Source: a virus | Virus record (IMG/VR): IMGVR_UViG_3300046007_010744 | Span: 1 to 35,906 of that record | Reading direction: 5' to 3' (one strand) | DNA: 35,906 nucleotides | Part shown: positions 13,556-35,459 of the stretch, piece by piece | How positions within the stretch are numbered: position 1 is the first letter of the stretch | Layout of the letters: the number at the start of each line of letters is the position of its first letter | Translations under genes and position numbers: made by a program | The notes under the pieces: generated by a model | What the model was told of the DNA's origin: nothing | The model's input: the letters and a program-made list of their open reading frames with translations, nothing else | The model's database searches: none

Positions 13556-13897
13556 TTACACCGCTCTCAACTGAACGCCGGTGACTTCCCACAGCCCCCC
13601 AGGCAGGAGGGCCCAGGACGGCGCCGAGGCATACCGCCACCGGATTGGCGCCGGCGGGATGGCACGCCCCACCCAGACCGCCGCGGGCAGCTCCCAAGAT
13701 GACAGCAGCCTCACGGTTCGGAAGTGTTGCTGGAAATCGTCAAACTGCGCAGGGGTGAACACCGGCAAAGGCAAACTCACGGTTTGACCAGACAGGGTAT
13801 CGCTCAGCAAAAACCGCCGGTCGAGTTCGGCAGCGATATTGAAATCCCCTAGCGTGTGTGGCCTCCCGATTGGCAGGCAGGATTCAGGGAAATCCAT
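13556..13897 (-). CDS. Small virion/tail-type protein on the opposite strand
   Basis: 113 residues from ATG 13897 (a TTG one codon upstream is the alternative); the ATG shares a base with the stop of the preceding leftward gene. The end segment (PIRWRYASAPSWALLPGGLWEVTGVQLRAV) and middle (FTPAQFDDFQQHFRTVRLLSSW) resemble the order F..AQ....i....g... - W.Ya - ....Y.l.v..igV seen in the first ~115 residues of the rightward tail protein that starts at 12322. I therefore read it as a related tail-type protein. It lies convergent to the tail block, with only 16 bases between the two ends and no clear terminator. Confidence 0.5.
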   Translation of the reverse strand: MDFPESCLPIGRPHTLGDFNIAAELDRRFLLSDTLSGQTVSLPLPVFTPAQFDDFQQHFRTVRLLSSWELPAAVWVGRAIPPAPIRWRYASAPSWALLPGGLWEVTGVQLRAV

Positions 13898-14751
13898 CAA
13901 ACGTAAACCCCGCCGATCTCAATGTCATTGGCGTTGATTGGATAGGCAGCGCCATTGGCAGGGTAGACTATCCCCCAGTCTACAATCATTAAAACACGGT
14001 CTGCAGTAGCAGCCCCGCCAAGCCTTTGGTAATAGGCTACATATCTAGGCGATGCTGTAACGCCTGTAAGGATGATTTGCTCGGCTCGAATTATGGTTTT
14101 ATTGGCGGCATCGTCTCGCGTGATCGTCAGCGGGGCAGCCACGCCGCCAGCGGTGTAGCCAGTCCCGGTCACCTCTGCGCTCAGATCCGACCGGAACGAA
14201 TGAGCGGCGCTGGGGGTGTAGCCAGTGCCTAGCAGCATGGCGTAGAAGTTGCCAGCACTTGGGTTAAGGGTTTCGTTTATGATTGCATTAATTGTTGCAT
14301 GGGGAATTGTGATATTTGCGCTTCCAGTCTTGGCGGTTTCAATCTTCATTTGCTCGATCCTGAACAGCCCTCCAAAGCTGGCCTGAAGGCTGCCAAGGTC
14401 GTTGTAACCCAGGACGATTTGCTGAGAAGCGGTCGATCCTGTTGGGCGATAGTAGATTAGGATGCCTTGTACGCCTGTGATGGCGGCATCCCAAGAAACC
14501 GGAGCAATCAGTAACGTGTTAACCCCGGTCGTAGTGTTCATTGAGTTGCTGAACATTACCTGTTTGCCGCCTGCGGAATATCCGGTAACAGGGGTGATCT
14601 CGCCGCTGGTTATTGCGGCAATTGTGTCATGCGTATCTCTGTTAAATACAAAACTAGAAGTCATCAACTGACCGTAAAACGTGCCAGTCAGCGGCATGTC
14701 AGCATTCGCCAGGCTGAGCTGTGCCCGGTTGCTGAGGGTGAAAACGGGCAT
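13897..14751 (-). CDS. Virion-associated protein with two repeated domains
   Basis: 284 residues. Two related halves are seen: the first has FYGQLMTSSFVFNRDTHDTIAAI and then EITPVTGYSAGGKQV; the second has FYAMLLGTGYTPSAAHSFRSDL and then EVTGTGYTAGGVAAP. Each half continues into an ...ITG/LTGV...I.YY(R/Q).. strand and a hydrophobic strand before a turn. The unit FY.xLL...Y....HSF.sdl..EvtGtGYTAGG is familiar from phage structural (tail or decoration) proteins of unknown fold. It is coded leftward, facing the tail block, and forms a coupled pair with the 113-residue protein after it. A region of about 160 bases upstream (14752-14910) is free of genes and could hold its promoter. Confidence 0.6.
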   Translation of the reverse strand: MPVFTLSNRAQLSLANADMPLTGTFYGQLMTSSFVFNRDTHDTIAAITSGEITPVTGYSAGGKQVMFSNSMNTTTGVNTLLIAPVSWDAAITGVQGILIYYRPTGSTASQQIVLGYNDLGSLQASFGGLFRIEQMKIETAKTGSANITIPHATINAIINETLNPSAGNFYAMLLGTGYTPSAAHSFRSDLSAEVTGTGYTAGGVAAPLTITRDDAANKTIIRAEQIILTGVTASPRYVAYYQRLGGAATADRVLMIVDWGIVYPANGAAYPINANDIEIGGVYV

Positions 14752-21521: not shown

Positions 21522-22610
21522 TCAATCCAGGCCAGTGATCGGAGCGTCAGCCGCGGGAGCAGCAGCAGGACCCGACCGGCGAACTGGGGCAGGAGCAGAC
21601 CGGCGGCCAGTTGCAGGGGCTGCAGGTGCGGGCGCGGGTGCTGGCTGGGGGTCGGCGGCCACGGTGGTTCGCCCCACCGGCAGCCGCTCAACCGTGCCAG
21701 GCTCGGTGCACGGGGCGGGCTGTTCCGGGCCGCTGGGGGGCTCCAGGGTCAGGGAGCTGGGCCCTAAATCCGGAGAGCTGGGCGGGGCTTCGGAATTTGG
21801 GGCCTGGGGCTCTGGTTCAGGGGTGGGCTCTGGTTCAGGAGCAGGGGCCTCCTGCGCGGCGGCGATCTGATGGTTGAGATCCTCCACGGTGATAGCCGGC
21901 TGCAAGCTGGGGGGAGTCATCTCCTCAAAGCTCGCAGGGACAACCGTATCAATGGTGTCCCGGTCAGCGCCAAGATCGTTGCTGGTGGGCAACCGCTTGG
22001 AAAGGCGGCGAATTACCGTTTTCTTGGCCATCTCCCCCCAGTTGCTAGCCCAGCACGCTTTGCCAATGCCGGTAGCCTTTGCCCGTATCTTTTCAATTTC
22101 AGCAAGGCTCATCACCTCACGCTGTATATCGCCATCCTTAAACTTTGCAATCGCGTATGCAGCGATCGGGTCGCCTTGCTTGGCTAGTTTTGGCTTATGA
22201 AAAATGCTTTCATCGTCTCCTAGCTGAAAATTAAATTCGTCGCCTTCGTAGACTACGTGAGCCCTGATACTACTGATCTCTCTGCTTTGGCGAATCTTTT
22301 TTAGAATGCCGTTAACCATCGGCATGTATGCAACTGTCTGACAATTACTTGCCCGGTCGTTGTATAGGCTCAACCCAGCCTCCCTGCCGTCAAGGAGCAG
22401 GCCGTCTTGGGCCGCTTTCATACACGCAGCAACCAAGCTGCGGCGATCGGCTGCAAGGAGCTTTGGCTCCATTTGAACAGCGGTGACAATTGTGCGCGCA
22501 AACCGCTCAACTGGAATCTGAGAAGGTAAAGCTGCTTGAAATTCGCCGTGAGACGCTACAAGCGTTTCCCTAAATTTTTGAAGTTGAATCGCTAAGCTTG
22601 ATTCAGTCAT
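21522..22610 (-). CDS. recT: RecT-family single-strand annealing protein
   Basis: 362 residues. The core (1-235) shows the RecT signature: FARTIVTAVQMEPKLL, SLVAACMKAAQDGLLLDGREAGLSLYND, TVAYMPMVNGILKKIRQSREI and IAAYAIAKFKDGDI, ending with WGEMAKKTVIRRLSKRLP. It anneals complementary single strands during phage recombination. The C-terminal ~110 residues are Pro/Ala/Glu-rich and GC-rich, unlike the AT-richer core, and are likely a disordered tail. The gene sits between the RecE-type exonuclease and ssb, making a SynExo-plus-SSB module. Confidence 0.92.
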   Translation of the reverse strand: MTESSLAIQLQKFRETLVASHGEFQAALPSQIPVERFARTIVTAVQMEPKLLAADRRSLVAACMKAAQDGLLLDGREAGLSLYNDRASNCQTVAYMPMVNGILKKIRQSREISSIRAHVVYEGDEFNFQLGDDESIFHKPKLAKQGDPIAAYAIAKFKDGDIQREVMSLAEIEKIRAKATGIGKACWASNWGEMAKKTVIRRLSKRLPTSNDLGADRDTIDTVVPASFEEMTPPSLQPAITVEDLNHQIAAAQEAPAPEPEPTPEPEPQAPNSEAPPSSPDLGPSSLTLEPPSGPEQPAPCTEPGTVERLPVGRTTVAADPQPAPAPAPAAPATGRRSAPAPVRRSGPAAAPAADAPITGLD

Positions 22611-23536: not shown

Positions 23537-23880
23537 CGCACCACCGTCGGAGCCACAGCACTTCCCACCGGGCACCGTGCGCGGCCCTGGTCCACTCCAA
23601 CCGCATAGGCCAGGGCGGAGGCAATCAGGGCTAGAACCCCAAGCAGTATCAAATTTTCAAAGCCGTCAAACTGGTGTTGGCGACGGCGCTGGCCAGGGGG
23701 AAGCTGCCGATCAGCAATGTTCCCCAGGCTAAGAGCTGCGACCCGCAGCGCATCAATTCGCTGGGGCCTGGCCATGGCCCCCCAGGATGCACGAAGGCCC
23801 CTTAGGTCATACATCGTTGCGTCAAAGCGCTTGATGTCTAGGAACTCGGCGAGCGAGACACGGTTAGATGGTCGATTCAT
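23533..23880 (-). CDS. Small membrane protein
   Basis: 115 residues from ATG 23880; a longer frame upstream is only open, not coding-like. The N-terminal half is basic and helical (FLDIKRFDATMYDLRGLRASWG). A single hydrophobic helix (ENLILLGVLALIASALAYAVGV) lies in the last third. It is coupled to the exonuclease gene by ATGA. Unknown function. Confidence 0.5.
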   Translation of the reverse strand: MNRPSNRVSLAEFLDIKRFDATMYDLRGLRASWGAMARPQRIDALRVAALSLGNIADRQLPPGQRRRQHQFDGFENLILLGVLALIASALAYAVGVDQGRARCPVGSAVAPTVVR

Positions 23881-24215
23881 GGCGTTGGGTTGGAGAGGAT
23901 GGGATTGAGGCCGGCGCCAAGCCGGATCAGGTGATGCACAGCCCTCGCGTCGCTGGCTCCGCCATTGGCAGCGGCCACGGCCTCCACAGCGGAAACCGAA
24001 TCTTTGAACCCGAGCGACGTGGCGCCCTGAAAAATCAGGGAGCGAAAGGCCGCCGCCTGGGTGCCACTGGTCTGGTCTTGCAGCCGCTTTACCTGTTCGT
24101 ATGCGTCTGCAGGCAGGTAGGCGTCCACAACGACCGGATTGCCAACGCCGTCGTAAATCGCGCCAGTAACCCGCTTGCCGGGGCTGGGGCGGCGCTTTGG
24201 GATCGGCTTGCTCAT
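23877..24215 (-). CDS. Hypothetical protein, possible small DNA-binding protein
   Basis: 112 residues, ATG 24215 overlapping the stop of the tiny gene upstream (ATGA). A basic Pro/Arg start (KPIPKRRPSPGKR) leads to NPVVVDAYLPADAYEQVKRLQDQTSGTQAAAFRSLIFQGATSLG. That strand - helix - turn - helix order (VVDAYLPADAYEQVKRL...AAAFRSLI..G...LG) resembles ribbon-helix-helix proteins, but I am not certain. The tail is Ala-rich. Confidence 0.5.
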   Translation of the reverse strand: MSKPIPKRRPSPGKRVTGAIYDGVGNPVVVDAYLPADAYEQVKRLQDQTSGTQAAAFRSLIFQGATSLGFKDSVSAVEAVAAANGGASDARAVHHLIRLGAGLNPILSNPTP

Positions 24216-24346
24216 GGCTGGCGCTGCTCGAACAACAGAGGCTGAGGCGGCGGCAGCGGGATCTGGGGGGCGCGCAGGGTCGCGCCAATCCAGGCGATGC
24301 AGACTACGCCGACAAAGAGCAATCCCCCGGTGAATGGGAGGGTCAT
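24212..24346 (-). CDS. Tiny membrane protein (44 aa)
   Basis: This ORF starts at ATG 24346 and ends TGA at 24212-24214. Both ends overlap neighbours as ATGA, which is the main support that it is expressed. It has one hydrophobic helix (TGGLLFVGVVCIAWIGATL) and a Pro-rich tail (PQIPLPPPQPLLFEQ). It would sit in the inner membrane; function unknown. Confidence 0.5.
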   Translation of the reverse strand: MTLPFTGGLLFVGVVCIAWIGATLRAPQIPLPPPQPLLFEQRQP

Positions 24347-24645
24347 GGCTGCTTTGGTTGCAGCAAAATTTGCGCATTTGCGCATTGCAAAGCGGCGCTT
24401 TCCGCCTCGGCGTCAAACATAGACCGCAATTTTCTATGCAGCAAATCGTCCGCAACAGACACCAGCTTTTCTAAAACTTTGATGTCTCCCGTTAACTCCA
24501 GCGTCTCAATTCTTTCTGAATAGCTATCAGGCTGGCTTTTCGAGTTCATTCGAGCGTTCAAAGCGGTCTGCAGTTCGTCAGACACTACGGTCTGGGCATC
24601 GATTGCCCGTTGCAACAGCTTGCGGTGCCGGGGGTCAGTGATCAT
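24343..24645 (-). CDS. First gene of the leftward operon, hypothetical helical protein
   Basis: 100 residues from ATG 24645. It starts MITDPRHRKLLQRAIDAQTVV and is helical throughout (SERIETLELTGDIKVLEKLVSVADDLLHRKLRSMFDAEAESAAL). The ATG lies directly beside the control region with 10-bp tandem repeats (24689-24728), so this gene is probably the first to be made. No family recognised. A small regulatory or nuclease-partner protein is possible. Confidence 0.5.
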   Translation of the reverse strand: MITDPRHRKLLQRAIDAQTVVSDELQTALNARMNSKSQPDSYSERIETLELTGDIKVLEKLVSVADDLLHRKLRSMFDAEAESAALQCANAQILLQPKQP

Positions 24646-24688
24646 TGGGATGAGGGAGCGCACGGGTGTGGCGCATCTCCAAAACCTA

Positions 24689-24728
24689 CCACGGTTTGCC
24701 ATGGTTTGCCATGGTTTACCACAAAACA
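24689..24728. repeat. 10-bp tandem repeats, possible operator cluster
   Basis: Four 10-base units in a row: CCACGGTTTG, CCATGGTTTG, CCATGGTTTA and CCACAAAACA, with CCATGG palindromes between them. The 10-bp period places all units on one helix face. They lie between the first leftward gene (start 24645) and the first rightward repeat element (24740), so a repressor or initiator-protein binding site array is the likeliest reading. Confidence 0.6.
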
Positions 24729-24739
24729 ACCCAACCCTA

Positions 24740-24801
24740 TGACAATCTGTAAAGCGTCACACACCTAGGGCGCCATGGCGTTATCTACCGATTACATTAT
24801 G
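24740..24801 (+). promoter_or_regulatory. Two-block repeated element, copy 1
   Basis: Block A begins TGACAATCTG and ends CGTCACA; sixteen unlike bases follow; block B begins GGCGTTATCTACC and ends GATTACATTAT. The block-to-block distance is the same in all three copies (38 bases from TGACA to GCGTTATC) while the middle differs. The following gene starts ~51 bases downstream at 24852. See finding for the possible role as promoter plus operator. Confidence 0.7.
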
Positions 24802-24855
24802 GAGACAAGGGGCAAGCCCCACAACTTCCGGCCACGCTGCCGGCTTCAAAAATGA
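24775..24855 (+). CDS. Possible 26-aa leader ORF across block B
   Basis: ATG 24775 opens a frame through block B (MALSTDYIM, then METRGKPHNF...) that ends TGA at 24853-24855, overlapping the next ATG as ATGA. The same ALSTDYI codons occur in the second copy behind GTG, but in the third copy no start codon precedes them. The conservation is therefore probably of DNA and not of peptide. Confidence 0.2.
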   Translation: MALSTDYIMETRGKPHNFRPRCRLQK

Positions 24856-25166
24856 AAACCGCCACTTCGGTTTTGGCTACTGTTCCCGCTTCCTTCCGCA
24901 ACAAGCGTCAGCAACCTGGCGCTGCTGAACAGCAGCTGCGCAACCTGGAGCAAGCGACATCAGATTTCGACCTGAAACAATTGGCCTATGGGGTGCTGTA
25001 CTCCGATTCCACTGGCCGCATTTCTGGCACCATCTCTATGGCGCTCCGTCGCGCCACTCCATGGAATGCGGCAAAACTAATTGCCGCCATGGCAAACGAT
25101 GGTTTGACATTGGTCTCTGAGGTGCCTTACTGGATGAACGCCAATGCCTTGTCGGTACTGGCTTGA
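24852..25166 (+). CDS. Hypothetical small protein, first rightward accessory gene
   Basis: 104 residues. It has a Lys/Arg/Gln-rich beginning (ATVPASFRNKRQQPGAAEQQLRNLEQ), a middle with YGVLYSDSTGRISGTISMALRRATPWNAAKLIAAMANDGLTLV and an aromatic end (PYWMNANAL). The middle looks like a small folded domain with a strand pair and a helix. No family known to me. It is preceded by repeat element copy 1 and followed by a good terminator, so it is a one-gene unit. Confidence 0.55.
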   Translation: MKTATSVLATVPASFRNKRQQPGAAEQQLRNLEQATSDFDLKQLAYGVLYSDSTGRISGTISMALRRATPWNAAKLIAAMANDGLTLVSEVPYWMNANALSVLA

Positions 25167-25191
25167 TTGGGTTGCCAAGGCCTCTGTTACA

Positions 25192-25213
25192 CCCCCTTCT
25201 TTAAGGGGGTTTC
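25192..25213 (+). terminator. Intrinsic terminator-like hairpin
   Basis: CCCCCTT (25192-25198), CTTT loop, AAGGGGG (25203-25209), then TTTC. The stem has seven perfect pairs and the tail is U-rich though short. It lies 26 bases after the stop of the first rightward gene and just before repeat element copy 2, so it separates the two units. Confidence 0.75.
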
Positions 25214-25233
25214 AATGCTCGCTCACAATTTCG

Positions 25234-25295
25234 TGACAATCTGCGAACCGTCACACCAGTAGTGCCCCGTGGCGTTATCTACCGATTACATTCTG
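25234..25295 (+). promoter_or_regulatory. Two-block repeated element, copy 2
   Basis: Block A (TGACAATCTG...CGTCACA) and block B (GGCGTTATCTACC, then GATTACATT with CTG in place of ATG) in the same spacing as copies 1 and 3. It follows the terminator at 25192 and precedes the ATG at 25338 by about 43 bases, close to the distance in the other copies. Confidence 0.7.
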
Positions 25296-25337
25296 ATCAC
25301 CGGGGCGGAGTTCCCCGGATCCAATCGCTCTCGCAAC

Positions 25338-25511
25338 ATGGACTACGACGACGCACACACGGCCGCCACCAACGCGGCCAGCGAACTTGAAGAACTGCAG
25401 GCCACTGCTTTTTGGTTGGAATTGCCCGGTGACATCCAGGTCGAACTCTGCAAGGCGCACGCCATCTTGCGCACCATGGTCGGGACCATGGAGGCCACCG
25501 GCCTGGCCTGA
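25338..25511 (+). CDS. Hypothetical small acidic protein (57 aa)
   Basis: I prefer ATG 25338 (MDYDDAHTAATNAASELEELQATAFWLELPGD). An in-frame GTG at 25269 would add 23 residues coded by block B, but copies 1 and 3 of the same block clearly lie upstream of their genes. The product is a small helical protein with an acidic first half and a helix (QVELCKAHAILRTMVGTMEATG) at the end. No family recognised. Confidence 0.5.
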   Translation: MDYDDAHTAATNAASELEELQATAFWLELPGDIQVELCKAHAILRTMVGTMEATGLA

Positions 25512-25561
25512 TCGCTCCTTACCATCGCCAGCCGGCTACAGGCGTTAAACCGAGCCGAACC

Positions 25562-25581
25562 GCCCCCAGTGGTCCGGGGGC
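25562..25581 (+). promoter_or_regulatory. Leader hairpin C
   Basis: GCCCCC at 25562 pairs with GGGGGC ending at 25581, followed by AATCAACCA. It lies 32 bases before ATG 25614. Two more hairpins with similar position and following bases lie at 27284 and 27523. Confidence 0.45.
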
Positions 25582-25613
25582 AATCAACCACCTCCGCCAC
25601 CCAGCCGCCAGCA

Positions 25614-25922
25614 ATGACTATCACCGTTAACGGCCAAAAGATGGAACCAATCGAAACCGCTCCAAAAACCGGATGTCCCGTTTGGGCGCAAATTGCCGAT
25701 CTTCCTACCGAAGAAACCATGAATTCAGTCGGTGTCGATCCGACTGAATTCAAAAGAAAAGTCAGGAGAGCTTGGATATACTGGACAGATATTGGACTGC
25801 CAGGGTGCAACCCTGGTGGGCATTGGGTTATTGTTTCGCCTGATTTTAACTGCCATACATACAATTTTTTCATTGATGGGTGGTTCCCGTGGTTCACGCC
25901 CAACCTGCACGGCCCTTCTTGA
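25614..25922 (+). CDS. Hypothetical protein with MxPIETAPK start (phage/prophage type)
   Basis: 102 residues from ATG 25614; ATG 25641 (MEPIETAPKTGCPVW) is an equally good start because M-x-PIETAPK-DG is a very common beginning of short phage proteins. The body has many aromatic residues (RAWIYWTDIGLPGCNPGGHWVIV, YNFFIDGWFPWFTP). Such proteins are usually small beta-sheet proteins of unknown role. The gene is AT-richer than its neighbours. Confidence 0.6.
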   Translation: MTITVNGQKMEPIETAPKTGCPVWAQIADLPTEETMNSVGVDPTEFKRKVRRAWIYWTDIGLPGCNPGGHWVIVSPDFNCHTYNFFIDGWFPWFTPNLHGPS

Positions 25923-25958
25923 TTTCGGCAGCACACCCCATTCACCCCCCCCCATCCG

Positions 25959-26442
25959 ATGACCCCTCAATCTCGAACTCTCCCCCCCCGCCGCAGCCGC
26001 GGCACGCATCGCCTCACTCCTGCTGCAACTCGCAGCCCTGGCCATTGCGATCGGCAGCCAGTGGCTCTGGCGACACCGACGGCAGATCGGCGCGGCGCTG
26101 GTGGCCGCAGCCGCTGCCACCTACTCAGCCTGGGCCTGGGGCCGGCAACAGATCGAGGCCCTGGCCGCTGACTCGGCCCGGCGGCTACCCAGCCAACCAG
26201 TTGCGGCCCTGGCGCCGATCACAGCCGCCCTGGCAGCGGCCTGGGGGCTAGTAGATCGCGCCACCATGACCCAAGCGGACCGGGCGCAATGGGCCCGGCT
26301 GACCCAGCAGCTGAATGCCGAAAGAGCCTGTTACCAGGAGCTGCGCGCGCGCGCCCCTCTCCATCCGACGCATTGCACTCCAGCTGACGTATTGCAATGG
26401 AGAGAATGGGCCCGCCGCCATGGCTGGACGTTGGTCGAGTGA
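25959..26442 (+). CDS. Membrane protein apparently frameshifted at a C8 run
   Basis: ATG 25959 (MTPQSRTLPP) runs in one frame to the C8 tract at 25982-25989; the coding-looking frame after it (from AAAARIASLLLQLAALAIAIG) is offset by +1 and has no ATG/GTG/TTG of its own until GTG 26101. One C fewer would join both halves into a ~160-residue protein. It would have two hydrophobic helices (IASLLLQLAALAIAIGSQWLW and GAALVAAAAATYSAWAWG) and a soluble helical tail (DRAQWARLTQQLNAERACYQEL). A sequencing error, a slippage-controlled gene or a real break are possible. The simple GTG 26101 form would lack most of the first helix. Confidence 0.5.
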
Positions 26443-26711
26443 TGCCTGACCCCAGCCCTATGCCTGACCCCACCGGCGCAATCAGTCGCCCCCGCTATGT
26501 GCTCTGCCCTGGCTGGATCACGTCGAAAAATGACGGAGATCAGCATTATGTCAGTGCAGCAAGGTTGGCTAGCTTGTACGGGGTTAATCTGCGTGATTGT
26601 TTAATTGAACTTCCTAGGAAATCACGCAGGTTTCAAGTTCACGAAAAAATGGTATTTCTAAATCCACGGTTCGATGGCGATTATCGATTACCTCCCCTGC
26701 CCAATGCCTGA
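26442..26711 (+). CDS. Conserved phage-type hypothetical protein
   Basis: Up to 89 residues from ATG 26442 (TGATG with the previous stop); ATG 26460 is an alternative, and both starts read ATGCCTGACCCC. The sequence RYVLCPGWITSKNDGDQHYVSAARLASLYGVNLRDCLIEL and then LNPRFDGDYRLP is a pattern I know from many phage proteins (RYylCPG...Sk.DGd.HyisA..La.LYGv....C......L.PR.DG.Yr.P). Function unknown, apparently compact alpha/beta. Confidence 0.65.
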   Translation: MPDPSPMPDPTGAISRPRYVLCPGWITSKNDGDQHYVSAARLASLYGVNLRDCLIELPRKSRRFQVHEKMVFLNPRFDGDYRLPPLPNA

Positions 26712-26952
26712 CCCCAGCACCTCAGCCCCCACCACCGCAGCCCAACGCCAGCGCCTCTACCGCCAGCGCAAGCGGGGTCAAGCACCAGGCGGCCGGCGGA
26801 TCCCGTGCGAAAGCTGCCCCCGGCGCCACACCGGCAAATATGGCCAGCTCTGCTGGGAGTGTGCCCGCAAAACCCCAGAGGGGCGGGCAACGGTGGCCCG
26901 GTTGGTCTGGGAACATCGCCAGCGGCAGAAGCAGAAAGATGACAATCCGTAA
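26704..26952 (+). CDS. Small zinc-ribbon-like basic protein
   Basis: 82 residues from ATG 26704, overlapping the previous gene by eight bases (ATGCCTGA). The N-terminal half is basic (AAQRQRLYRQRKRGQ), the centre holds C-x2-C ... C-x2-C (CESCPRRHTGKYGQLCWEC), a zinc ribbon, and the end is again basic (EHRQRQKQKDDNP). A nucleic-acid binding role is likely. Its last codons and stop lie inside block A of repeat element copy 3. Confidence 0.55.
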   Translation: MPDPSTSAPTTAAQRQRLYRQRKRGQAPGGRRIPCESCPRRHTGKYGQLCWECARKTPEGRATVARLVWEHRQRQKQKDDNP

Positions 26953-27001
26953 AGCGTCACAGGGTTGTCGTGCTGGGGCGTTATCTACCGATTACATTAT
27001 G
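26940..27001 (+). promoter_or_regulatory. Two-block repeated element, copy 3
   Basis: Block A (TGACAATCCG...CGTCACA) overlaps the end of the zinc-ribbon gene; block B (GGCGTTATCTACC to ATTACATTAT) has the same spacing as in the other copies. The next gene starts at ATG 27047, about 46 bases downstream. In this copy no start codon precedes the ALSTDYI codons. Confidence 0.7.
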
Positions 27002-27046
27002 GGGACAGGCGAGGGGGAACCCGAGCCGCTCACCCAACCTCCAGTC

Positions 27047-27265
27047 ATGACCGCCGCCACCCTTCAGTCCCAGCTCAAAGCCGCCGAAGCCGTCGTCAAC
27101 GCCATTGATTACAGCGCTGACGGCTGGGAGGCGAAGTGGGATCAGGCGATGGCCTCAGTTCGCCAGTTGAGGGAGCAGATCAATCCCGCCAAGCTCGATC
27201 AAGAATTTTTCAGCGTTGATAGCGGCATCCACCGCACCATCCTTCCAAATGGCCGGGTGATCTGA
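27047..27265 (+). CDS. Hypothetical small helical protein
   Basis: 72 residues from ATG 27047; ATG 26999 inside block B is in frame and would add 16 residues. The sequence (ATLQSQLKAAEAVVNAIDYSADGWEAKWDQAMASVRQLREQI) is an amphipathic helix pair, and the end (DSGIHRTILPNGRVI) a strand-turn. No family recognised. It is followed by a 12-C run and leader hairpin A. Confidence 0.5.
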   Translation: MTAATLQSQLKAAEAVVNAIDYSADGWEAKWDQAMASVRQLREQINPAKLDQEFFSVDSGIHRTILPNGRVI

Positions 27266-27283
27266 CCCCCCCCCCCCAAGCCC

Positions 27284-27302
27284 GCCGGGAGCTTATCCCG
27301 GC
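27284..27302 (+). promoter_or_regulatory. Leader hairpin A
   Basis: GCCGGGA - GCTTA - TCCCGGC, a perfect 7-bp stem, followed by AATTCATCCA and by ATG 27331 28 bases later. A C12 run (27266-27277) stands just before. Copy B at 27523 has the same arrangement, so this is a repeated unit. Confidence 0.6.
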
Positions 27303-27330
27303 AATTCATCCATTCTCTCACCAGCCAGTC

Positions 27331-27510
27331 ATGCCTGAAAAACGCTTCTTCCCCATCTCCTGCTGCTCTCTGTGCTGCGGTGAGACGAACTGTCCCGCTA
27401 CCTGCCCCAACCTGCCCGACCTGACCGCCTTCAACGCCTGGAAACGGCGCACTGGGGCAACCCAGCCAGACCCGATCTGGAGCCCCACCTGCTGGCAAGC
27501 AGCTGTTTGA
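27331..27510 (+). CDS. Cys-rich small protein (59 aa)
   Basis: ATG 27331 to TGA 27510. The product has two clustered Cys pairs (SCCSLCCGETNCPATCPN) followed by a Trp-rich part (LTAFNAWKRR...PIWSPTCWQ). It looks like a small metal-binding or disulfide-rich protein. No family recognised. Start and stop are flanked by hairpins A and B. Confidence 0.55.
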   Translation: MPEKRFFPISCCSLCCGETNCPATCPNLPDLTAFNAWKRRTGATQPDPIWSPTCWQAAV

Positions 27511-27522
27511 CCCCCCCAGTCC

Positions 27523-27538
27523 GCCGGGGCTTCCCGGC
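27523..27538 (+). promoter_or_regulatory. Leader hairpin B
   Basis: GCCGGG - GCTT - CCCGGC, a perfect 6-bp stem with a tetraloop, preceded by GACCCCCCC and followed by AACACATCCA; ATG 27570 lies 31 bases later. The preceding GACCCCCC, the stem and the CATCCA end match copy A. Confidence 0.6.
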
Positions 27539-27569
27539 AACACATCCAATCCCGTCGCCTTCCATTCCC

Positions 27570-27767
27570 ATGACATACCGCGTCGAAGTCCACAACGGCC
27601 AAACATGGGCCAATGGCATTCGCATCAACGACAGCCGAGTGCCTGAATTTTGCAGCATGGCCAGGGCAGATCGACTAAGCATCACCGGTGCGCGGCAACT
27701 GCGCGATCAGGCCATCAGGCTTTGCGGGGGGACCCTGCGCGTCAAGAAGGTGCCGGCTGATGCCTGA
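27570..27767 (+). CDS. Hypothetical small protein
   Basis: 65 residues from ATG 27570. TYRVEVHNGQTWANGIRINDSRVPEF is strand-rich and is followed by a helix (MARADRLSITGARQLRDQAIRLCGG) and a last strand (TLRVKKVPADA). No known family. Its stop overlaps the next ATG in the ATGCCTGA junction. Confidence 0.5.
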   Translation: MTYRVEVHNGQTWANGIRINDSRVPEFCSMARADRLSITGARQLRDQAIRLCGGTLRVKKVPADA

Positions 27768-28143
27768 CCCCAACCTGCCGACCCTTGGCGATTACCTCGC
27801 CATGACCCCAGCACCCCGAGCCCCACAGCCGTACCAGGAAAGGTTTTTGGCTGCTCTTCAAGAGGGCAGCAGGCTTGAAACCTGGCAGGAGCGCTGGGAT
27901 AGAGAACGGAATGAATCCTCGGAAAACTTTGCTGCAAGCATTAAACGAATCCAGGAAGCTGCTGACGCACTGGTGGCAGCTTTTGTGCCTATTGGACAGG
28001 CTGCACGTCTCGCACAGGCAGCCATGGCACCATTTGCTCGCCAGATCCTTGAGGTCATTGAAGTAGAGCGAGGCCCCACTATCGGCCGGAAACGCCGAGC
28101 ACGCCGGGCCAGGGGCCGACGCCGACGCCAAGGCAATACCTGA
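27760..28143 (+). CDS. Hypothetical protein with basic tail
   Basis: 127 residues from ATG 27760 (ATGCCTGACCCC junction). It starts PDPNLPTLGDYLAM and has helices (ETWQERWDRERNESSENFAASIKRIQEAADALVAAFVPIGQAARLAQAAM). The last ~25 residues are almost all Arg/Lys (RKRRARRARGRRRRQ), so nucleic-acid binding or a charged tail is likely. No family recognised. Confidence 0.5.
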   Translation: MPDPNLPTLGDYLAMTPAPRAPQPYQERFLAALQEGSRLETWQERWDRERNESSENFAASIKRIQEAADALVAAFVPIGQAARLAQAAMAPFARQILEVIEVERGPTIGRKRRARRARGRRRRQGNT

Positions 28144-28180
28144 CCCCAGCCTGATCACATCGCCCAATTGCATCCAACCC

Positions 28181-28411
28181 ATGCTTGCTACCTGCACACC
28201 CCTACGCGAATGGCGCGTAACAATTTCCGAAACAACTAACGGCAATCCTGTTACGCTTGATTTGGTTACATCAGCAGATCAATCACCTGCTGATGTACTT
28301 GCAAAGTTGGGTCAAATTCTTGGCACGTTTGGCAAAGTCAATCTTGATCAAGAGACCGTGCGCTTCTTTGCCAAGGCGCCGCCTATAGAGCTGTTTTTGC
28401 CAACACTCTGA
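28181..28411 (+). CDS. Hypothetical small protein, last of the rightward accessory block
   Basis: 76 residues from ATG 28181. It begins with strands (REWRVTISETTNGNPVTLDLVTS) and continues with a helix (ADVLAKLGQILGTFG) and strand (ETVRFFAKAPPIELFLPTL). Unknown. Just after the stop comes a terminator (28419-28439). Confidence 0.5.
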   Translation: MLATCTPLREWRVTISETTNGNPVTLDLVTSADQSPADVLAKLGQILGTFGKVNLDQETVRFFAKAPPIELFLPTL

Positions 28412-28418
28412 CCACACC

Positions 28419-28439
28419 GCCCCCATCAAGGGGCTTTTT
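28419..28439 (+). terminator. Intrinsic terminator
   Basis: GCCCC (28419-28423), CATCAA loop, GGGGC (28430-28434), then TTTTT. It ends the rightward accessory block and stands 14 bases before the convergent leftward gene end at 28453. Confidence 0.85.
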
Positions 28440-28452
28440 CATGGCCACCCCT

Positions 28453-28977
28453 TCAGCTCGCCCGCTCCAACCAGTCCTCATCGGGCGGGAACGTCTCATC
28501 AAGCGATGGCCAGGGGCGCGTGAAATACTCCGGCACCGGGGGCCGTGGCCGCGGCGGACAGCTCAGCAATCGCGCCTGCAGCTGAGCCCGCTGCTGAGCT
28601 GTCAGCAGGTGGTGGATCGGATCGAGCACCACGGCATCGGGCCCCGCCAGCCAATCAGGCCACCGGCCGCAGCCGTAGTCCCAACGGGCACCGCCAGGGG
28701 CCAGGGCCACTGCCAGGCGGTGCAGCTCTCCCGATTGCCACCAGAACACAAACCGCCAACCGCCGCCGGCCCATGCCTGTTGCCGGTCGAGGGACTCGTC
28801 AGAGCGAACCGCCCACGCCTCAACGGGCACGGCGCCAGATGCCACGGCGATCAGCGCCCCTGCCACTGCATCCCCGCTGGGTGGTGGTGGGCCCTGCGGG
28901 GTGGTGTCGGGTGGTTCTGGTGTGGCCCTGGGGACAGCGGGCTTGCGAGGGCGGCCGGGGCGTTTCGGGTTAGGCAA
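28453..28977 (-). CDS. Hypothetical Pro/Trp-rich protein
   Basis: About 174 residues. TTG 28977 (LPNPKRPGRPRKPAVP) overlaps the previous stop by a few bases and is preferred; an ATG at 29031 would overlap the previous gene by 62 bases and code an unlikely beginning. The C-terminal half has many Trp residues (FVFWWQSGELHRLAV, ARWDYGCGRWPDWLAG, DEDWLERAS) and short helices. No family recognised. Confidence 0.45.
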   Translation of the reverse strand: MPNPKRPGRPRKPAVPRATPEPPDTTPQGPPPPSGDAVAGALIAVASGAVPVEAWAVRSDESLDRQQAWAGGGWRFVFWWQSGELHRLAVALAPGGARWDYGCGRWPDWLAGPDAVVLDPIHHLLTAQQRAQLQARLLSCPPRPRPPVPEYFTRPWPSLDETFPPDEDWLERAS

Positions 28978-32123: not shown

Positions 32124-32303
32124 ATGTCGTCGAAACGAAACCCGATCTCAATTCGGCCCACTGAGCAGCAGATGCTCTGGCTTCGGTCTGAAGCCGACAG
32201 TAGGGGCCTTGCGCTCAACGCCTTGGTGATCATGGCGATCGAGCGAGCCATGCGGACAGCCACGGCGCGGAAAAACGCCAAGGCGAGGCGTGAGGCCGAA
32301 TGA
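32124..32303 (+). CDS. Ribbon-helix-helix-like small DNA-binding protein
   Basis: 59 residues from ATG 32124 (an upstream in-frame TTG is unlikely). NPISIRPTEQQMLWLRSEADSRGLALNALVIMAIERAMRTA has the strand - helix - turn - helix layout of Arc/CopG-type repressors (ISIRPTEQQ.. strand; EADSRGLALNALVIMAIERAM helices), followed by a basic tail (ARKNAKARREAE). It may control its own operon and the divergent small-gene block. It is coupled to the primase-helicase gene by ATGA. Confidence 0.6.
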   Translation: MSSKRNPISIRPTEQQMLWLRSEADSRGLALNALVIMAIERAMRTATARKNAKARREAE

Positions 32304-34680: not shown

Positions 34681-34823
34681 TCTAAACCATTGCTATGACT
34701 GCGATTTGCCGGATTTTATCCCGATCCCTGTGTTTTTTATTGGGGGGGGGGGGGCATTGCAGACCATCTAGTCGCCAAACGCGAAAACTCACAACTGCCA
34801 AAACCACCACGCAGCCACAAGCC

Positions 34824-35459
34824 ATGACCCAGCCAGCACCCAAACGTGAGTGGAGGCGATGGACGCCGGAAGAACTCGAACTTCTGGCGGACCTTGCCGG
34901 TGAGATCCCGTGGCACATGGTTGTTGAGCAGTTCAACCAATCCCAGCCCCCTCGAACTCCCAAGGCCCTGAGCCGGCAAGCAGAGGCCATGGGTCTGTCA
35001 ATCAAGCCTCAAGGGGAATTTATTACAACATCTGCCATTACAGTTCTTACGGGATATAACAATAAAAAAATACTTAACTGGATTCTGTCAGGAAAGTTAA
35101 AAGCAGTTTATCGCTATAAGTCAAAAAATAATCATTGGTGTATATCTCGCAAAGAGTTGAGGGCATTTGCTAAAAAACATCCCAAGCAGTTTGGCGGTAT
35201 TGGTTATTCAGAGCTTACTCAGCTATTTGACTCGGAAATACACGCTTCCAAGATTGTAGCCATGAATCTGCCGCGATTGAAGCATACTGTTGAGGTCGAG
35301 TGTATTGAAACAGGCCAACGCTATAAATCAATAAAAGAGGCATCTGTTGCTGCATACGTTAGTAAGTCCGGTATTTCTGCATCAATTGCTAAAGGTTGGG
35401 CAGCCAATGGTTTGCACTACCGGCGCGTGGTAGAACCGGCAAGGCAGGATTTGAAGTAG
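34824..35459 (+). CDS. DNA-binding protein with SANT/HTH and NUMOD-like segments
   Basis: 211 residues from ATG 34824 (MTQPAPKREWRRWTPEELELLADLAGEIPWHMVVEQF). A longer frame from 34695 would cross a G13 run and code an odd start. The first ~55 residues resemble small SANT/Myb-like HTH domains (RWTPEELELLADLAG...A..R.A.AMGLS). A middle HTH-like stretch follows (TTSAITVLTGYNNKKILNWILSGKL). The end (YKSIKEASVAAYVSKSGISASIAKGWAANGLHYRRV) looks like a NUMOD1 DNA-binding module usually found with homing nucleases; no nuclease part is seen. A transcription regulator of the late block is likely. The region 35020-35400 is AT-richer. Confidence 0.6.
   Translation: MTQPAPKREWRRWTPEELELLADLAGEIPWHMVVEQFNQSQPPRTPKALSRQAEAMGLSIKPQGEFITTSAITVLTGYNNKKILNWILSGKLKAVYRYKSKNNHWCISRKELRAFAKKHPKQFGGIGYSELTQLFDSEIHASKIVAMNLPRLKHTVEVECIETGQRYKSIKEASVAAYVSKSGISASIAKGWAANGLHYRRVVEPARQDLK

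Follow-up and report, generated by a model that had tools for sequence, protein, structure and literature searches.

The window, which is the whole stretch of DNA analysed (a 35.9-kb virus record of 35,906 nt, IMGVR_UViG_3300046007_010744), contains three copies of a two-block element that are predicted to be rightward-facing phage promoter/operator cassettes, where block B may be a promoter core controlled by a zinc-finger protein of the phage itself and block A may be a second operator. This reading is given a probability of about 60%, with activation by the zinc-finger protein likelier than repression. It draws on the conservation of the element among related phages and on the covariation between the centre of block B and one residue of the zinc-finger protein (gene at 26704–26952).

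Phage genome and related records

The genes of the window include those for a tape measure protein, RecT (21522–22610), SSB, thymidylate kinase, a dCTP-deaminase-like protein and an AAA ATPase. The nearest named phages, by a tail protein, are the Synechococcus siphoviruses S-LBS1, S-CBS1 and S-CBS3 (32–37% identity), and the hosts of the window phage are probably freshwater picocyanobacteria. No close relative at the DNA level is present in the named phage collection. Viral contigs in IMG/VR containing exact block A or block B gave 14 related records (G001–G014), making 15 with the window, and near-identical phages are counted once in the tests (G005, G009, G012 and G014 as one; G010 and G013 as one). 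Searches independent of the element, using the class I gene, the zinc-finger gene and the leftward neighbour gene, lead to the same phage group, with the exception of one 2-kb fragment. G015 and G016 contain B-like matches without block A, which look accidental.

Architecture of the element

The three copies of block A (TGACAATCYGYRAASCGTCACA) and block B (GGCGTTATCTACCGATTACATT) reported in the initial annotation are real, with block A starting at 24740, 25234 and 26940 and block B, which has the same letters in all three copies, at 24777, 25271 and 26977. A chance origin is excluded, as the next-best matches within the window carry 8 mismatches to block B and 5 to block A. The distance from the start of block A to GCGTTATC is exactly 38 bases in all three copies, the motif TGAC-N12-GTCA lies inside block A, and GTCACA and TTATCT are 19 bases apart, all as described in that annotation. 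The middle is indeed variable between copies, but it is 15 bases long rather than about 16, and each copy is followed by an ATG, at 53, 45 and 48 nt from the end of block B instead of the 43–51 first given.

The three copies are direct repeats facing right; their parts, the genes behind them and the terminator-like site given below lie on the plus strand. Copy 1 comprises block A (24740–24761; TGAC-N12-GTCA plus CA), block B (24777–24798; covarying centre CCGA at 24788–24791), a putative -10 (TACATT, 24793–24798) with a putative +1 A (24805), both assigned by position only, and a 5' leader hairpin (GGGGCAAGCCCC, 24809–24820; z -1.2, not significant), upstream of a small gene of 104 aa without family (24852–25166). 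Copy 2, of class I, comprises block A (25234–25255), block B (25271–25292; centre CCGA at 25282–25285), a putative -10 (25287–25292) and +1 A (25299), and a leader hairpin (CCGGGGCGGAGTTCCCCGG, 25300–25318; z -0.3, not significant), followed by the class I small gene of 57 aa (25338–25511), whose 12 IMG/VR relatives are all in element-carrying records. Copy 3, of class II, has its block A (26940–26961) overlapping the 3' end of the zinc-finger gene, followed by block B (26977–26998; centre CCGA at 26988–26991), a putative -10 (26993–26998) and +1 A (27005), a leader hairpin (GGCGAGGGGGAACCCGAGCC, 27008–27027; z -3.1) and the class II small gene of 72 aa (27047–27265), at whose position other phages carry unrelated genes. 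The rightward small-gene cluster ends at a terminator-like stem plus T run (28419–28434); terminator-like sites number 8, against 4.9 expected. C-rich runs (25942–25950, 25981–25988 and 27265–27274) occur near or just past the stop codons of small genes as a recurrent intergenic pattern, and some are followed by GC hairpins ahead of the next start, e.g., near 27523.

Conservation of the element in related phages

A search of related phages for both blocks at fixed spacing, as suggested in the initial annotation, reveals 29 copies in the 15 records, all with the spacing of 38, each sitting 42–59 nt ahead of a small gene. In the alignment of these copies, 16 of the 22 positions of block B are invariant, with columns 38–46 (GCGTTATCT) and 52–58 (TTACATT) unchanged in 29/29, while the first base of block B and the A at column 47 are nearly invariant and the 15-nt middle is variable. 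As to whether block B is kept as a peptide or as DNA, a question raised earlier for related phages, it is the DNA that is kept, since block B is invariant at every codon position outside its centre and the downstream genes and frames vary; a coding explanation is ruled out by the shifting frames and differing genes. A function of the element at the DNA level is strongly supported by this comparison of sequences.

The class I copies are followed by the 57-aa gene, the product of which begins with MDY or MDF in nearly all cases. The class II copies are followed by small genes starting MT that come from different families, one of which is common to four phages, and the remaining ones share no mutual similarity at E 0.01. 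Class II-type copies front nine unrelated small-gene families at near-constant distance, and one more family lies behind copy 1 of the window. As the A/B elements stay constant before unrelated gene families, the cassette is fixed while the gene behind it is exchanged. The window and G004 possess an extra element-plus-gene unit upstream of class I, and the first element copy of G004 fronts a 135-aa protein with CXXC pairs, which is weakly like Anti-TRAP (E 0.003, below cut-off).

Covariation of the block B centre with a zinc-finger residue

The window and four relatives have CCGA at the centre of block B, three phages have CGGA, and all others have GGCG; minor deviations are GCCGA and GGTCG, each seen once. 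The centre is identical or nearly so among the copies of one phage and differs between phages: for columns 47–51, the identity between class I and class II copies is 0.93 within a phage vs 0.53 across phages (permutation p 0.0007). In a residue-level scan of 56 ORF families common to the three groups (15,980 aligned columns), a single locus separates all three types, namely the residue after Cys3 encoded by the zinc-finger gene, the second listed family being its antisense frame. This residue is Trp with CCGA, Arg with CGGA and Ser with GGCG in the window and all 12 relatives carrying the gene. Whole-protein identity was rejected as a covariation signal, as it is too noisy, so that the residue-level scan was needed.

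A distance of 0.7–2.5 kb separates the class I copy from the zinc-finger motif downstream of it. Where the surroundings of this copy are aligned (481 columns, 373 variable), the type is tracked by the four bases of the B centre and a single stray column, and by no other position. Around class II, the consistent differences between CCGA and CGGA phages are confined to the L-C-W vs I-C-R codons and block B. GGCG phages have in common a stretch of diverged sequence that runs from the middle of the zinc-finger gene to block B; linkage is thus possible there, and in these phages the class I copy alone is not closely linked to the gene. G007 carries different centres in its class I (GGTCG) and class II (AGGCG) copies. 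Of the 1260 ways to arrange the labels over nine dereplicated phages, 2 are consistent; the count takes the phages to be exchangeable, a condition that mosaic genomes satisfy only roughly. With three main B types and about nine independent phages, the covariation rests on few changes. Arginine favours guanine, and the Trp-to-Arg replacement accompanying a C-to-G change in block B fits this preference, which is only suggestive.

The covariation makes the zinc-finger protein a well-supported candidate for the phage-encoded reader of the B centre. Its gene (W51 codon at 26854–26856) sits between the class I and class II copies, just before class II, and encodes 82 aa with the motif CX2CX11CX2C. 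The protein shares weak similarity, below cut-offs, with double zinc-ribbon and treble-clef profiles, and its model contains short strands and helices at low confidence (pLDDT 63–65). No solved structure matches it, and no Ogr/Delta is among the Pfam families listed for it. The G004 version does not have the basic stretch ahead of the first cysteine.

The readers proposed in the initial annotation (32124, 15401 and 34824) thus give way to the zinc-finger protein, while its suggestion of either an unusual promoter read by a phage factor or an operator plus promoter holds as far as a phage-encoded reader is indicated, promoter activity being a prediction. Two small proteins conserved in the group, encoded at 23877–24212 (minus strand) and 32124–32303 (plus strand), are ribbon-helix-helix-like by inspection (Pfam RHH_5, E 0.16 for the former and none for the latter). 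They were rejected as readers of the B centre, as their strand residues fail to track the B type, and are candidate readers of block A or of tandem 10-bp repeats (GRTYTGCCRY; 24690–24722). The latter, present in about 2–5 copies with the number varying between phages, sit in the divergent intergenic region upstream of copy 1 and are possibly a separate operator array. A run of about 12 G (34743–34754) lies inside the ORF listed at 34695–35459; it may reflect a true start downstream (ATG near 34824), a variable tract or an assembly error.

Predicted promoter features and mode of control

No sigma-70-like promoter (-35 and -10 hexamers 16–18 nt apart) is found in 24300–28600, where 1.5 are expected by chance, and no -35 hexamer is conserved, as alignment columns 30–35 are not -35-like. 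The right end of block B, TACATT, matches TATAAT at 4/6 positions, and an A at column 65, at the usual distance after it, is kept in 25/29 copies and taken as +1. With TACATT as the -10 and this A as +1, block B would be a core at -28 to -7, and its centre, at -17 to -14, would be read by the four-cysteine zinc-finger protein. Block A would be an imperfect dyad (TGAC-N12-GTCA) centred near -55, acting as an additional site that is bound by the zinc-finger protein too or by another factor. From these features we infer promoter function, the start site, activation, direct protein–DNA contact and the role of block A.

No sigma-factor gene is found in G000–G014, records that may be incomplete, and one is detected in S-LBS1, S-CBS1 and S-CBS3 (L164–L166), which served as positive controls and contain no A/B element, as if one control system had been swapped for the other between phage groups. 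A phage sigma factor was accordingly rejected as the reader, and the idea that the 284-aa protein at 13897–14751 is a diverged sigma factor found no support. The records contain no match to single-subunit RNA polymerase (PF00940), for which the control set gave no match either.

The zinc-finger protein would most likely activate transcription, an activator being expected because no -35 is conserved, no sigma-70-like pair lies in 24300–28600 and no sigma factor is found in these records. As its gene is in the unit that class I would drive and just before class II, the product would raise its own unit and the next one. More specifically, and tentatively, the protein may contact -17 to -14 between the invariant halves of block B and so replace the -35 contact of host RNA polymerase, with the residue at the start of the recognition helix (Trp/Arg/Ser) setting the four bases accepted, which would give private promoter codes before exchangeable genes.

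A repressing role is unlikely, though it ranks ahead of the other alternatives. Host RNA polymerase, assisted by a host or phage activator bound at block A, would here express the genes early, and the zinc-finger protein would then bind block B as an operator over the -10 and shut off its own and the next unit. Block B does overlap the putative -10, and the position of the gene after class I and before class II, in the unit that class I would drive, is a layout usual for autoregulation. However, there is no conserved -35 for the basal activity, for which an activator at block A could substitute.

It is improbable that the B centre is the same within a phage because its copies undergo gene conversion, or because a recombinase needs matching crossover regions, with no cognate reader. 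Recombination sites likewise match within a phage and vary between phages, and the window phage encodes RecT. Against this, copies within a phage agree little or not at all in block A, the middle and the leader, as would not be expected had they been homogenised, and the arms of block B are not inverted repeats. Conversion would also leave unexplained that the centre is tracked by a single amino-acid position in a single protein. An integron-like or Xer-like site was dropped on inspection only, as block B is without inverted arms.

Small zinc-finger proteins can bind RNA, and GC hairpins lie 3' of block B, so that the zinc-finger protein might bind the leader RNA of block B and control translation or termination. 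This is very improbable: no sigma-70-like promoter lies upstream of block B, and class I leader hairpins are not stabler than shuffles. The hairpins, which are without a T run, are notable (against mononucleotide shuffles) only for some class II leaders and were rejected as a common RNA signal for this reason.

Reading by a host system alone (RpaB at an HLR1-like site with TTACATT as half-site, or a host sigma factor), with the covariation due to chance or common descent, is highly unlikely. TTACATT fits the half-site of HLR1, an element located in core promoters of cyanobacterial high-light genes (PMC6331805), but the two TTACAWW-like repeats 10 bp apart are not found, as there is one perfect half-site and the other repeat, TTATCTA, is imperfect and at 11 rather than 10, and the covariation is left unexplained. 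The 41 matches to the pattern of block B in the genome collection are scattered over taxa that include no named cyanobacterium, and they look like chance, for which reason the idea of a host copy was rejected.

Comparison with known systems

The phage-promoter reading has its closest parallels in three systems. The P2/186 late promoters controlled by Ogr/Delta are alike in having a small phage-encoded four-cysteine zinc-finger protein and several promoters per phage. The P2 dyad lies near -55, the position that the dyad of block A would occupy in the predicted register. Both dyads have 12 central bases, but the one in P2 is TGT-N12-ACA (PMC3931495), which TGAC-N12-GTCA does not match. The cysteines are also spaced differently (CX2CX22CX4C in Ogr/Delta vs CX2CX11CX2C), the covarying bases are in block B (-17 to -14) and not in the dyad, unlike in the P2 system, and the genes served are small ORFans instead of late structural genes. 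The element is therefore not filed under P2 late control, as neither the Ogr cysteine pattern nor its site is found.

PeSLs are described, in work cited in PMC4503421, as mediating gene shuffling among T4-like phages. They resemble the present element in that a conserved regulatory cassette stands ahead of unrelated, exchangeable small genes, an arrangement also found here. They differ in combining a host-type early promoter with a terminator stem-loop, whereas the present cassette has neither a recognisable host-type promoter nor a T run after its leader hairpins; a dedicated phage reader is indicated here, and T4-type phages are a different group.

The SAS/ESAS of cluster K mycobacteriophages are likewise two-part conserved elements shortly before several small genes of different families, where the ESAS, made of two imperfect 17-bp inverted repeats separated by a spacer of varying length (mostly 4–13 bp), stands beside the 13-bp SAS, itself adjacent to the start codon (PMC3203893). 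In the present element, however, blocks A and B are dissimilar, the spacing is fixed and the leader contains no SAS sequence.

Implications

The zinc-finger protein and the B centre constitute a protein–DNA recognition pair predicted from sequence alone in uncultured phages, and the pairs Trp-CCGA, Arg-CGGA and Ser-GGCG offer a natural specificity series that is directly testable. On this reading, a phage could swap one tiny accessory gene for another without altering the control cassette in front of it, which would remain matched to the regulator of that phage. Such elements may also be a source of compact regulator-dependent promoters for cyanobacteria.
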